A stretch of DNA of 64,000 bases from Streptomyces durmitorensis (GTDB taxonomy: Bacteria > Actinomycetota > Actinomycetes > Streptomycetales > Streptomycetaceae), in the NCBI RefSeq assembly GCF_023498005.1, contig NZ_CP097289.1, forward strand, positions 1,736,001 through 1,800,000, read 5' to 3'. Below, one piece after another: positions 58,662-62,963 of this stretch (positions are counted from its first letter, which is position 1; each line of letters opens with the position of its first letter). The notes under the pieces are model-generated. The model did no database searches. It had not been told where the DNA came from and saw nothing but the letters and a program-made list of their open reading frames with translations. Made by a program: the position numbers and the translations under genes.

Positions 58662-60827
58662 TCAGCTCGTGAGGACGACGAGTTGCTGGGTCGCCCGGGT
58701 CATCGCCACATAGCGGTCGACCGCTCCTTCGATCCCCTCACCGAAGTTCTCGGGGTCGATGAGGACGACCAGGTCGAACTCGAGCCCCTTCGCGAGCTCC
58801 GGGGTCAGTGACTGGACGCGGGACATCTCCCCGAAGGCGGGATCGCCGATCACACAGGCGATCCCGTCGGCGTGGGCGGCGAGCCAGGTGTCGAGGACCG
58901 ATTCCAGGTCCGCGACGGATCCGTGGGCGACGGGGACACCGCTGCTGCGGACGGAGGTCGGCACGTTGGCGTCCGGGAGCGCGGCCCGGATGACCGGCTC
59001 GGCCTGAGTCATGACCTCTTCCGGCGTCCGGTAGTTGACGCTCAGGGACTCCACATTGACGCGGTCGAGCCCGATCCGCTCCAGGCGTTCCTGCCACGAC
59101 TCCGTGAAGCCGTGCCTGGCCTGCGCCCGGTCACCGACGATGGTGAAGCTCCGGGACGGGCAGCGGAGCAGCAGCATCTGCCACTGGGCGTCGGTCAGCT
59201 CCTGGGCCTCGTCCACGACGATGTGGGCGAACGGTCCCGCGAGCCGGTCCGGGGCGGCGGGCGGCAGCTCGGACTCGTCGACGAGGCTGACCTGGGCGTC
59301 CTGGCCGCGCAACATCGTCACCAGGCCTTCGCCGTCGTCACCGTCGGCGCCGGAGGCGGCCGCCGCGTCGATCAGGTTGTCGACGACCTGGGCCATCTGC
59401 TCGCGCTGCGCGGCGAGGACGGCCTCCTGCCTGCGCCTGTGCCGGGCCGCTGCCGGGTCGCCGAGCCGCTGGCGTGCCGCGTCCAGGAGCGGCAGATCGG
59501 ACACCGTCCAGGCCTGGGGCGCCTCCTTGCGGAGCAGGGTGCGCACCTCGTTCCGGTCGAGCCAGGGCGCGCACATCCGCAGATAGGCGGAGTTCGACCA
59601 CAGGTCTGCGACGAGGTCCGCCGCTTCGAGCAGCGGCCATGCGCGGTGCAGGGTCGTGACCAGTTCCTCGTCGTGCCGCAGCGACCGCTCGAAGAGCTCA
59701 CCGGGAACGTCGCCGTCGAGTTTGTCGAGCAGGATCGCGACGAGTTCCTCCCACACCTGCTCGCGCGCCTCGTTGTGCGGAGTGCCGCCTCTCGCCGCGT
59801 CGAAGGCCTCGGCCCAGTCGTCGGCGCTCAGCCGGACGTCGGCCCAGTCGGTCGAGACCGTCATCCCCTTGGTGGGCGGCTCCTCGTAGAACCTGACGGC
59901 CTTCTCGATCGCCTTCACCATGTCCGCGGACGACTTCAGGCGAGCCACCTCCGGGTCGGCCTCGACCGCCGCCCCGGCACCCTCGGCGACGAGGTCCTCC
60001 AGGATGCAGGTCTGCACGCCCTCCTCGCCGAGGCTGGGCAGGACGTCGGAGACGTAGTTCAGGTAGGGCCGGTGCGGGCCGACGAACAGCACGCCGCCCC
60101 GGTTGTGGCCGAGGCGGGGGTCGGAGTAGAGGAGATAGGCGGAGCGGTGCAGGGCGACGACGGTCTTGCCCGTGCCGGGGCCGCCGTCGACGACGAGGGC
60201 GCCGCGGGAGCCCGCGCGGATGATGGCGTCCTGGTCGGACTGGATGGTGGAGAGCACGTCCCGCATCCGCGCCGACCGGTTGCTGCCCAGGCTGGCGATG
60301 AAGGCGGACTGGTCGTCGAGCGCCGCGTGGCCCTCAAGGCCGTCGGCGGTGAACACCTCGTCCCAGTAGTCGCTGATCCGGCCGTCGGTCCAGCGGTACC
60401 TGCGGCGGCTGGCCAGACCCATCGGGTCGGCGTGCGTGGCCGCGAAGAACGGCTCGGCCGCGGGGGCGCGCCAGTCGAGCAGCAGCCGACGGCCCTCGCT
60501 GTCGGTGAGGCCGAGCCGCCCGATGTACACGGGCTCGGAGTCGTCCGCGCCGACGATGTGCCCGAGGCACAGGTCGAGCCCGAAGCGGCTCAGGGTGCGC
60601 AGGCGGGCGGTCAGCCGGTGGATCTCCAGGTCCCGGTCCATCGCTTCCCGGCCGATGCCGCCGGGCGCCTTGCGCTGGACGTCGAGGCGGGCGGACACGT
60701 CGGCGATGGTCTGCTCGAGGCTCTGCGCGAGGGCAGCGAAGTGCTTCTCGTCGCCGGCGATCAGCGTGGGGTCGGCCTTGGGGGCGAGATGGGCAGGAAG
60801 GTCGAACGCAGACAGCAAGGCAGGCAC
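58662..60827 (-). CDS. helR: HelR-like RNA polymerase recycling helicase
   Basis: 721 residues from GTG 60827 with GGAGA upstream. UvrD-like motor without a nuclease: Walker A GGPGTGKTVVALHRSAYLLY (near 199), Walker B HIVVDEAQELTDAQW (near 540), GDRAQARHGFTESW, SVNYRTPEE and YVAMTRATQQLV. The segment GRRLLLDWRAPAAEPFFAATH is characteristic of the HelD/HelR group. HelR of S. venezuelae pulls rifamycin-bound RNA polymerase off DNA and confers rifamycin tolerance. A perfect rifamycin-associated element lies 60-79 bp upstream, which supports HelR rather than generic HelD. Confidence 0.93.
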   Translation of the reverse strand: MPALLSAFDLPAHLAPKADPTLIAGDEKHFAALAQSLEQTIADVSARLDVQRKAPGGIGREAMDRDLEIHRLTARLRTLSRFGLDLCLGHIVGADDSEPVYIGRLGLTDSEGRRLLLDWRAPAAEPFFAATHADPMGLASRRRYRWTDGRISDYWDEVFTADGLEGHAALDDQSAFIASLGSNRSARMRDVLSTIQSDQDAIIRAGSRGALVVDGGPGTGKTVVALHRSAYLLYSDPRLGHNRGGVLFVGPHRPYLNYVSDVLPSLGEEGVQTCILEDLVAEGAGAAVEADPEVARLKSSADMVKAIEKAVRFYEEPPTKGMTVSTDWADVRLSADDWAEAFDAARGGTPHNEAREQVWEELVAILLDKLDGDVPGELFERSLRHDEELVTTLHRAWPLLEAADLVADLWSNSAYLRMCAPWLDRNEVRTLLRKEAPQAWTVSDLPLLDAARQRLGDPAAARHRRRQEAVLAAQREQMAQVVDNLIDAAAASGADGDDGEGLVTMLRGQDAQVSLVDESELPPAAPDRLAGPFAHIVVDEAQELTDAQWQMLLLRCPSRSFTIVGDRAQARHGFTESWQERLERIGLDRVNVESLSVNYRTPEEVMTQAEPVIRAALPDANVPTSVRSSGVPVAHGSVADLESVLDTWLAAHADGIACVIGDPAFGEMSRVQSLTPELAKGLEFDLVVLIDPENFGEGIEGAVDRYVAMTRATQQLVVLTS

Positions 60828-60886
60828 TTAGTGAATCTCCCGTTTCCGCAGGTCCTGGCTTTGGCCTGCGATTGTGCGGCATCACC

Positions 60887-60906
60887 GGGGCCTTGCCGCA
60901 AGCCCC
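60887..60906. promoter_or_regulatory. Rifamycin-associated element (RAE)
   Basis: Minus strand GGGGCTTGCGGCAAGGCCCC, containing the published 19-bp RAE inverted repeat exactly. RAE drives rifamycin-inducible expression of inactivating enzymes and HelR in actinomycetes. Both arms contain -35-like hexamers: TTGCGG towards helR, with CACAAT 19 bases on, and TTGCCG on the plus strand, with TATAAA exactly 17 bases on (60916-60921). Confidence 0.92.
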
Positions 60907-60930
60907 CCACTGCGCTATAAATTAAGAGTG

Positions 60931-60964
60931 GCAAGGAGTGGGAACACCTCCTTGCCTTTCTTTT
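60931..60964 (+). terminator. Intrinsic terminator just downstream of the RAE
   Basis: 8-bp stem GCAAGGAG (60931-60938)/CTCCTTGC (60948-60955) followed by CTTTCTTTTTTCTCT. Such a T-rich terminator is rare in this window. It would stop plus-strand transcripts started at the RAE-linked TATAAA after about 35-40 nt. Confidence 0.7.
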
Positions 60965-61073
60965 TTCTCTCCTGCCCGCCGCCTTTTTCTCTCCTGCCGC
61001 CGCACTCTAGGTGCCGTGGGCAACCATGCGCGAGGATGTGGCGGGCCGGCGCTTCCAGCGATCGAGGAGAGTC

Positions 61074-62258
61074 ATGACCGCACGCATCCATGGCACCTGT
61101 GCCCCCGGATTCGAGGGCGTACGCGAGGAGTTCGAGCGGAACTTCACCGAGCGCGGCGACCTCGGTGCGGCCGTCGCGGCCACCGTGGACGGCCAATTCG
61201 TCGTCGATCTGTGGGGCGGTGACGCCGACAAGACGGGCACGCGCGCGTGGGAGCGCGATTCGCTGGTGAACGTGTACTCCACGACCAAGGGGATGACCGC
61301 GCTGTGCGCGCATCTGCTCGTGGACCGGGGCGAGCTCGACCTGGACGCGCCGGTCGCACGCTACTGGCCCGAGTTCGCCCAGGAGGGCAAGGCGGACATC
61401 CCCGTGCGCTGGCTCCTGAGCCATCGCTCCGGGGTGATCGCGCCGCGCGAGCCCATGACGTCGGACGACCTCTACGACTGGGAGAAGGTCTGCGCGGCGC
61501 TTGCCGCGACGCCGCCGTGGTGGAAGCCGGGTTCGGCGCAGGGGTATCACGCACTGAGCTACGGCTATCTGGTCGGCGAGGTCGTCCGGCGGATCACGGG
61601 CGTCTCGCTCGGTACGTTCCTGCGCAGCGAGGTCACCGGGCCGCTGGGAGCCGATGTCTTCGTGGGCACGCCTCGGAGCGAGCACGGCCGGTGCGCGAAC
61701 ATGGCGAAGCCGCTCGCTTCGGACGGCCCGCGCAGCGCGCTCGGCTCCGCTCCCCCGCCTGCCCCGCCGGTGCGCTCGATCGACGACCACCCGATGGCCG
61801 TCGTCACGCTCGCCCTGCAGTATTTGCCGGTCGGCAACGTGAACAGTGCGGCGTATCGGTCCGCAGAGATCCCCGCGGCCAACGGGCACGCGTCCGCGCG
61901 GGGTCTCGCGACGGTGTACGCGGCCCTGGGCGGCGGGGAGCTGGTGAGTCCGGCATCGCTTGAGCGGCTCAGGACGCGACAGGGGGAGCCCGACGAGCCG
62001 GACCTGGTGCTCGCGGCGGGCACGGCGTGGGGCGAGAAGTGGGACTGGGGTCTCGGCTACATGCTGAACCTGTACGGGCAGGCCGGGCCCAATCCGCGGG
62101 CCTTCGGGCACGGCGGCGCGGGCGGGTCCTACGCGTTCGCCGATCCCGAGAACCGGGTCTCGTACGCGTACGTGATGAACCGGATGGGCGGCGGCACCTC
62201 GGGGGAGGATCTGCGGAGCGTGCATCTGGTGGGGGCGCTGTACCGAAGCCTGAGGTGA
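61074..62258 (+). CDS. Beta-lactamase-family serine hydrolase (class C-like esterase)
   Basis: 394 residues from ATG 61074 (GAGGAGAG site). The catalytic SxxK is STTKGMTALCAHLLVDRGEL (near residue 70), the Tyr motif YGYLVGE near 165, and an HGGAGGSYAFAD block near the end replaces KTG, as in EstB-like esterases. There is no signal peptide, so it is cytoplasmic and more likely an esterase than a beta-lactamase. It is divergent from helR, with the RAE and terminator between them. Confidence 0.85.
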   Translation: MTARIHGTCAPGFEGVREEFERNFTERGDLGAAVAATVDGQFVVDLWGGDADKTGTRAWERDSLVNVYSTTKGMTALCAHLLVDRGELDLDAPVARYWPEFAQEGKADIPVRWLLSHRSGVIAPREPMTSDDLYDWEKVCAALAATPPWWKPGSAQGYHALSYGYLVGEVVRRITGVSLGTFLRSEVTGPLGADVFVGTPRSEHGRCANMAKPLASDGPRSALGSAPPPAPPVRSIDDHPMAVVTLALQYLPVGNVNSAAYRSAEIPAANGHASARGLATVYAALGGGELVSPASLERLRTRQGEPDEPDLVLAAGTAWGEKWDWGLGYMLNLYGQAGPNPRAFGHGGAGGSYAFADPENRVSYAYVMNRMGGGTSGEDLRSVHLVGALYRSLR

Positions 62259-62285: not shown

Positions 62286-62963
62286 ATGGAGCAGCACACC
62301 CCCCGCCACCGCCCGACAGGGCAGTACGCCGCCGCCGACCCCCGCAGAGCGGCCATCATCGACGCGGCTCTCGCGCTCTTCGCCAAGGCGGGCTATCTGA
62401 ACTCGTCCCTGGCGAAGATCGCCGCGGAGGCGGGCACCTCCGCCACGGTCATCACCCACCACTTCGGGTCGAAGCAGCGCCTTCTGATGGCGGTCCTCGA
62501 AGCCCGCGAGGAGCGCACGGTGCGTACGTTCGGGCGGCTGGGCCCCGGCTCCGGCGGCGACGACGTGCGGGCGCTGTTCAGGGAGGTGCTCGCGCTTGCC
62601 GCGTACAACCTCACCCAGCCGGGGCTCATCCAGCTCTACACCAGGCTTTCGGCGGAGGCAGGAGACCCCTCGCACCCGGCACACGGCTACTTCGCCGAGC
62701 GGTACGAGCGCGTCGCGCACTCCCTCGCCGCCGCGCTGCAACGCTCGGTCGAGGCAGGGCAGTTGAGGCCGGAGACCGACCCGGAGAGCATCGCCCGCGA
62801 GATCCTCGCGGTCTCCGACGGGCTCCAGGTGCAGTGGGCCGTCGCCGAAGGGCGCCTGGACTTCGTCGGGTTGTACCGCGCCCACCTGGACCGGCTCGCC
62901 CAGGCCCTCACCCTGGACGGGCAGGGCCTGGGCGAGCCGACCGGGGCGGAGCGGCTCCCCTAG
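62286..62963 (+). CDS. TetR/AcrR-family regulator
   Basis: 225 residues. HTH about 20-65 (RAAIIDAALALFAKAGYLNSSLAKIAAEAGTSATVITHHFGSK), then a helical ligand domain ending LAQALTLDGQGL. It lies 27 bp after the serine hydrolase on the same strand. TAATCT 6 bases before the ATG suggests its own leaderless promoter. A role with the upstream hydrolase or the downstream beta-glucosidase is possible. Ligand unknown. Confidence 0.85.
   Translation: MEQHTPRHRPTGQYAAADPRRAAIIDAALALFAKAGYLNSSLAKIAAEAGTSATVITHHFGSKQRLLMAVLEAREERTVRTFGRLGPGSGGDDVRALFREVLALAAYNLTQPGLIQLYTRLSAEAGDPSHPAHGYFAERYERVAHSLAAALQRSVEAGQLRPETDPESIAREILAVSDGLQVQWAVAEGRLDFVGLYRAHLDRLAQALTLDGQGLGEPTGAERLP

Follow-up and report, generated by a model that had tools for sequence, protein, structure and literature searches.

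The helR locus and its RAE

The window, by which we mean the whole 64,000-nucleotide stretch of DNA analysed, carries on its minus strand a gene for the RNA polymerase recycling motor ATPase HelR (1268.7 bits against NCBIfam NF041254 motor_HelR, cut-off 750), whose nearest solved chain is 6yxu_H, HelD. Upstream of it stands an exact copy of the RAE (Table 1), and on the other side of the RAE a serine beta-lactamase-fold hydrolase is followed at 62286-62963 (+) by a TetR-family regulator (ScbR/BetI-like), possibly in one unit with the hydrolase. The RAE was reportedly described in Spanogiannopoulos 2014, Surette 2022 and Hurst-Hess 2022. The letters of our search pattern are what we take to be the RAE consensus; at up to three mismatches 0.05 matches are expected per window. 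By sequence the site belongs to the RAE class as an exact match to a palindrome that recurs before resistance genes, and by position as an element upstream of a rifamycin-resistance gene, HelR scoring above the NCBIfam cut-off. The 9.86-Mb genome holds a single exact copy and a second RAE with one mismatch (G000:C1:8186368), located before a rox-class gene. Allowing up to three mismatches gives 9 and 6 genomic matches on the two strands compared to 11 and 8 for the reversed pattern, and since the reversed pattern matches as often, these weaker matches are noise.

In the available parts of the published accounts, the RAE is a 19-bp palindrome upstream of rifamycin-resistance genes (PMC10719064, PMC8655204, PMC12802891, PMC10194278), possibly bound by an unknown factor, and it overlaps the -35 of the gene-side promoter, the start of which has been mapped in M. 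smegmatis (PMC10719064). An earlier note on this DNA had proposed that the two RAE arms act as -35 elements of two divergent promoters, with TTGCCG on the plus strand 17 bp from TATAAA and TTGCGG on the minus strand 19 bp from CACAAT, and that the plus-strand transcript soon meets a stem-loop (GGCAAGGAG...CTCCTTGCC) followed by the T-tract TTTCTTTTTT. All of these motifs are where the note had placed them, the reading of the arms as two -35 elements fits at the level of sequence, and so does the hairpin, which lies no more than about 30-40 nt from the divergent start. The start itself, put near 60928 by the note, is likely to be at ~60930 instead, as inferred from the register of the -10 (see below). 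A generic consensus promoter and terminator scan of the window, working with 16-18 bp spacers and loops of up to 8, listed neither the divergent promoter nor its terminator, a miss that we put down to the scanner's spacer and loop limits. At 60840-60870, and in the gene-side flank of many other sites, there is a conserved start region (~CGCYGGCCgaGGCCAG...CCTGCGG), which forms a small palindrome at the predicted helR start.

Table 1. Coordinates of the promoter module, its neighbours and the related sites with a second palindrome core
Feature	Position	Strand	Remark
RAE, exact 19-bp near-palindrome GGGGCTTGCGGCAAGGCCC (gene-side orientation)	60888..60906	-	holds both overlapping -35 hexamers
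-35 of helR-side promoter, TTGCGG	60896..60901 (60901-60896)	-	
-10 of helR-side promoter, CACAAT	60871..60876 (60876-60871)	-	at N19; first base C
-35 of divergent promoter, TTGCCG	60893..60898	+	
-10 of divergent promoter, TAAATT	60918..60923	+	at N19; overlaps TATAAA 60916-60921 at N17
Predicted start of divergent RNA (G, hairpin's first base)	60930	+	inferred: 7 nt past -10, conserved TGG
Hairpin GGCAAGGAG-TGGGAACAC-CTCCTTGCC of predicted divergent RNA	60930..60956	+	
T-tract TTTCTTTTTT 3' of hairpin, intrinsic terminator	60957..60966	+	sequence
helR, RNA polymerase recycling motor ATPase HelR, gene-side target	58662..60827	-	NCBIfam and structure match
Serine beta-lactamase-fold hydrolase, divergent-side neighbour	61074..62258	+	outside conserved module
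CTCATGAG before helR in L336, L338, L339, L340, L341, L342, L345, L346	~1.5 kb into each locus; L345 nearer its start		

Paired -10 elements around the palindrome

With up to one mismatch, the RAE was found in 127 of 150 genomes of the same genus, many of which carry two or three such sites, and across the class a looser pattern matched 194 of 394 genomes and 62 of 137 genera. The sites studied further are a partial sample, made up of 129 sites from 131 loci (L101 and L104 were dropped, their sites being within 150 bp of a contig end) and at least 121 exact sites from 119 stretches of further genomes, 40 of the further same-genus sites being taken from the matches listed. BLAST clusters (helR, rox, rph, rgt, arr) gave the gene assignments, and each site was oriented by its gene. 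Sites with no classified gene were left out, namely nine of the 129 (L029, L043, L061, L084, L089, L100, L115, L131 and L136) and six of the 121 (L160, L179 and L244, which show the layout described below, and L168, L194 and L199, which do not), as were one classified site without both flanks, sites less than 110 bp from an end and duplicates. The 231 merged sites go with helR (100), rox (73), rgt (23), rph (22) and arr (13). The arr representative exceeds its NCBIfam cut-off (rifampin_ARR, 143.3 bits, cut-off 130); the rox and rph representatives, both incomplete sequence pieces, reach 764.9 bits (rif_monoox, cut-off 800) and 823.4 bits (RIF_Ptrans_rph, cut-off 999). Since the rgt representative stays below the cut-off over nearly the whole model (glycotrans_Rgt, 519.1 bits, cut-off 800), rgt is a family label only.

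Both -10 elements stand at exactly N19 in 222 of 229 unique gene-classified sites across the five classes, a count which omits both rows of L248, where one of two sites is wrongly oriented; the 231-site counts include them. On the divergent side TAnnnT is found at N19 in 224 of the 231 sites, and in at most one site at every other spacer from N14 to N26, while nAnnnT occupies N19 on the gene side in 228. The -35 of the gene-side promoter reads TTG in 120/120 sites, partly by construction of the search pattern. The module consists of a -10, 19 bp, the overlapping -35s of the palindrome, another 19 bp and a second -10, it is found with five gene classes, and its orientation follows the gene, not the motif. 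At 226 of 231 sites the divergent -10 opens with T, and at 213 the gene-side one opens with C (G in 14, T in 3, A in 1), so that at nearly all sites the better -10 aims away from the resistance gene. The gene-side arm thus has a weakened -10, CAnnnT. Discriminators are purine-rich on the divergent arm and G+C-rich on the gene-side arm. These counts confirm that the RAE plus divergent promoter layout is real, far beyond chance.

The earlier note was thus right about the existence of a divergent -10, which the survey extends to RAE sites in general, and wrong about its register. TATA does occur at N17 on the divergent side in 101 of 120 sites, where TATAAA is part of a longer conserved string, TATAnnTT. 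As the -10 itself the N17 TATAAA is ruled out, TAnnnT being present at N17 in 1/120 sites versus 117/120 at N19, and the N19 register survives also where sites read GATATCCT, CGTAAAGT or CCTATAGT.

Seven sites depart from the double N19 layout (L069, L097, L110, L150, L202, L226 and L239), among them one-base spacer shifts (L150, L202) and proteobacterial records (L226, L239). As a negative control, none of 11 RAE-like sites with two or three mismatches in the window's own genome has paired -10s, and exact RAE matches in Euryarchaeota, Nitrospirae and Paraburkholderia records and in one viral contig lack the layout. In the reverse test the divergent start region GCTATANNTTGARAGTGG, at up to one mismatch, matched in 51 of 61 same-genus genomes (reversed control, 0). 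All 30 loci among the matches listed carry an RAE with at most one mismatch in exact register (28 of them mismatch-free), and the gene-side -10 lies at N19 in 29 and at N20 in the other. In these 30 loci the outer GGG and CCC arms of the palindrome are invariant, though absent from the search pattern.

The divergent side offers no common gene. Among the divergent flanks of the 231 sites (up to ~1.4 kb), no reading-frame family (at least 120 aa) was common to more than five, no RAE-binding regulator linked to the sites was found, and the serine hydrolase of the window was seen only in its own genome. As no divergent neighbour is shared, the module is tied to the resistance gene rather than to the neighbour. 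The purpose suggested in the earlier note, that read-through of the divergent transcript would reach the hydrolase, finds little room here: the hydrolase is on the same strand and its start codon lies 117 bp past the first T of the T-tract, as a leader or attenuator would have it, but it adjoins only 1 of the 231 sites, and elsewhere the module is kept with unrelated neighbours. We give this explanation next to no credence. Read-through by rifamycin-bound polymerase in particular is unlikely, as rifamycin blocks RNA beyond 2-3 nt according to the part of PMC12802891 available.

Not every close helR ortholog has a complete RAE. The core is kept and one outer arm lost before the helR orthologs L263 and L264, and two (L322, L329) of the nine examined out of 14 close orthologs lack an RAE within 175 bp upstream of the start (L327, L331, L332, L334 and L335 make up the rest of the 14); the L322 genome has one RAE elsewhere on the same contig. 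A HelR search in 36 genomes, out of the 200 of the class that lack an RAE match, gave four close orthologs (66-78% identity), the remaining matches being at 43% or less. Two of these four are L263 and L264, and the other two, L262 and L265, show another palindrome, CTCATGAG, flanked on both sides by a -10 at N16. Searched with one mismatch allowed, a pattern derived from L262 and L265 hit 11 of 394 genomes, with 4 matches for the reversed control. Of the 11 hits, eight (both seeds plus six others, spanning six families in all) are located before helR (Table 1), and L337, L343 and L344 are not. The divergent -10 at CTCATGAG sites is of TGn-TAnAnn type, no TTG is visible by eye at the -35 place, and the two -10s are 40 bp apart versus 41 in the RAE. 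One genome (G188) has a classic RAE at rox (L114) and the CTCATGAG core at helR (L341).

The module was also seen in less expected surroundings. A 14-kb Streptomyces plasmid (L348, NZ_CP117713.1), one of two records examined among the 43 returned by the plasmid search at E up to 1, carries the full RAE module with rph, adjoining thiazolylpeptide bacteriocin and lantibiotic dehydratase genes. RAEs beside rph, rox or arr homologs occur in L205, L223, L253, L218, L226 and L239, from records titled Chloroflexi, Xanthomonadaceae, Aerophototrophica and Mesorhizobium, and reflect either transfer or misbinned contigs.

A predicted hairpin RNA on the divergent side

The predicted divergent RNA of the window (60926-60972) folds at -20.1 kcal/mol, with a z of -3.0 against 200 dinucleotide shuffles; two of the shuffles fold as well or better. 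Hairpins of 7 bp or more near the start are present in 212 of 231 divergent flanks, 112 of 231 gene-side flanks and 894 of 1155 shuffled divergent flanks; when four or more T among the following 8 bases are also required, the counts become 125/231, 9/231 and 172/1155. The hairpin by itself thus barely exceeds the shuffles, whereas the hairpin with its T-tract clearly does. Fold z averages -1.83 for divergent flanks and 0.09 for gene-side flanks. Of the features that the earlier note wished to see at other RAE sites, the terminator has a narrower reach than the divergent -10: all 68 sites within the genus have the hairpin and 57 of them hairpin and T-tract, compared to 144 and 68 of the 163 sites elsewhere. 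Termination may not be needed at every site, the T-tract being absent from most of those outside the genus. In the window the terminator appears to belong to the divergent RNA, since the T-tract lies on the plus strand and no likely gene ends there from the left.

The pairing of the stem is what the sites retain. At offset 25, the stem pair varies on both sides (C-G 131, A-T 44, G-C 13, unpaired 39, n=231). In a MAFFT alignment of 121 divergent RNAs the 3' arms were not aligned by structure, and pairs were not counted on it; instead, we used a half-swap test, in which 3' halves were taken from sites with a different 5' arm. Native RNAs fold at a mean of -17.2 versus -13.4 with swapped halves (20 repeats, -14.0 to -12.9), a difference of ~4 kcal/mol, and a fraction of 0.87 of native versus 0.72 of swapped RNAs has at least 7 of 12 arm positions paired. 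Native folds were better both within the genus (-19.9 vs -16.3) and elsewhere (-16.1 vs -13.6). Because pairs change on both sides and native folds beat swapped ones, we conclude that the hairpin arms evolve together.

This bears on two other accounts of the divergent arm. A palindrome containing TTGC automatically gives a -35 on both strands, and the arm could be a functionless by-product of a palindromic operator; such an origin leaves the fixed N19 -10, the conserved start region and the co-evolving hairpin unexplained, and we consider it very improbable. The short hairpin RNA could, on the other hand, be an effector acting in trans on polymerase, on a regulator or on mRNAs, an idea to which the 5' arm GGCAAGGAG, shared by 67 of the 231 sites, and the frequent presence of two or three RAE sites per genus genome lend some appeal. 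Yet there are 99 distinct 9-nt arms in the 231 sites, pairing being what is kept, and no Rfam family fits (best score 15.6 bits against a cut-off of 75, E 0.72, on the opposite strand), which leaves the trans-acting role improbable as well, if not quite to the same degree. Within the stem, 60945-60953 (+) reads CACCTCCTT, which resembles the anti-Shine-Dalgarno end of 16S rRNA, and the 5' arm is Shine-Dalgarno-like; this likeness is probably a by-product of a purine-rich stem.

How the paired promoters might respond to rifamycin

How the RAE senses rifamycin is called open in a 2026 paper (PMC12802891). In the parts of the RAE literature covered, there is no mention of a divergent -10 in mirror position, of the T/C bias or of a short hairpin RNA, nor is an RAE-binding regulator named; the founding papers are outside this coverage, and an earlier mention there is possible. 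The mirror layout makes drug sensing by the RAE directly testable. It points to a second promoter and a tiny RNA, a side that study of the gene-side promoter alone would miss, it predicts what 5'-end mapping, mutated promoters and assays with purified polymerase should give, and it connects the rifamycin responses of actinobacteria and Bacillus without equating them.

The closest parallel is the helD/pps rifampicin alarm of Bacillus subtilis, as set out in the available text of PMC12802891. There a stronger non-coding, antisense promoter, whose spacer is 19 bp long, makes a short terminated RNA opposite a weaker gene promoter, and the target genes are related. Polymerases from the stronger antisense promoter run into the slow sense promoter, sub-inhibitory rifampicin stops this, and inducibility is abolished when the promoters are moved 17 bp closer. 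RAE sites likewise have, judging by sequence, two sigma-A-type promoters of which the non-coding one is the better match, and an intrinsic terminator on the non-coding RNA in the window, at most genus sites and at a minority elsewhere. The Bacillus promoters, however, are convergent, with 39 bp between starts, whereas both RAE promoters diverge from the palindrome, share the -35 region and have predicted starts 66 bp apart (assuming a 7-nt distance from the -10). This diverging geometry rules out a Bacillus-type collision as the inducing step.

A second comparison is with the bidirectional promoters of Warman, Grainger and colleagues, in which, in the portion of PMC12825309 at hand, symmetry similarly offers polymerase two opposite, competing binding modes. 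Their divergent starts are most often 18 bp apart (commonly 10, 18 or 23), in contrast to the 66 bp predicted here, and in the RAE it is the -35 that is shared, each arm having its own -10. The same source reports that at a bidirectional promoter in E. coli strong initiation in one direction can repress the other, and that none of the five bidirectional promoters tested had enough basal activity for competition. In a steady-state model with a single binding place common to both promoters, none of 200000 parameter draws gave induction (best ratio 0.95), and when drug-bound polymerase was allowed to leave 10-1000 times faster none exceeded 2-fold (best ratio 1.00). Pure occlusion as the inducing step is ruled out by this simple model. 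With diverging promoters and occlusion failing, what is left is either a factor that reads the palindrome or an additional step by polymerase, for example its recycling once it has terminated.

We favour the first, and hold the chances about evenly balanced that the divergent arm restrains the gene-side promoter and that a dimeric factor on the palindrome mediates the effect of rifamycin. The divergent arm would be a working promoter which wins the shared -35 and draws polymerase into a short, self-ending transcript; without drug, this competition would set the off state and keep the resistance gene low, and the divergent hairpin would spare the neighbouring gene. On drug input the putative dimeric factor would shift the balance to the gene-side arm, by neither head-on polymerase collision as in Bacillus nor occlusion alone. 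A factor fits the invariance of the outer arms in 30 sites and the appearance of CTCATGAG as another core in the same layout, both of which point to a protein reader.

Alternatively, polymerase itself may be the drug sensor, such that rifamycin-bound polymerase arrested at the divergent promoter frees the gene-side promoter with no regulator involved. The Bacillus alarm makes this attractive: its genes are related (helD/helR and rifamycin-modifying pps/rph), and it too sets a weaker gene promoter against a stronger non-coding one that yields a short terminated RNA (PMC12802891, available part). The conserved first-base bias of the -10 is in keeping with this, and the module occurs, as would suit a self-contained device, with rph on a 14-kb plasmid and next to homologs of resistance genes in Chloroflexi- and Proteobacteria-titled records (L226 and L239 without the exact layout). 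Against it, the collision step of Bacillus is impossible between diverging promoters, exclusion at a shared site gave no induction in the model above, and Nonomuraea has retained the RAE before helD although it has a polymerase subunit resistant to rifampicin (PMC8655204, as far as its text is available). An extra step would be needed, for instance local recycling of terminated polymerase, which in vitro, according to the accessible parts of PMC6978322 and PMC7957599, usually remains bound to DNA and is able to restart, frequently in the reverse direction. We think polymerase sensing unlikely. A specific form, in which polymerase recycling on the short terminated arm shuts the gene arm, rifamycin breaks this loop and the same regulator-free, self-contained chassis accepts the CTCATGAG core, is in our estimation rather doubtful.

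Separately from the favoured reading of arm competition with a palindrome-bound factor, M. smegmatis has an upstream sense promoter, P1, starting ~20 bp upstream of the RAE (PMC10719064, available part). A P1-like promoter is probably not the reason for the conservation, no fitting TAnnnT-like -10 being visible by eye on that strand in the window or at the genus sites inspected. At one site, L122 (probably of the mycobacterial family), TTTAAT lies inside the hairpin loop on the gene-side strand (~1545-1575), a possible upstream gene-side promoter that would be convergent with the divergent arm.
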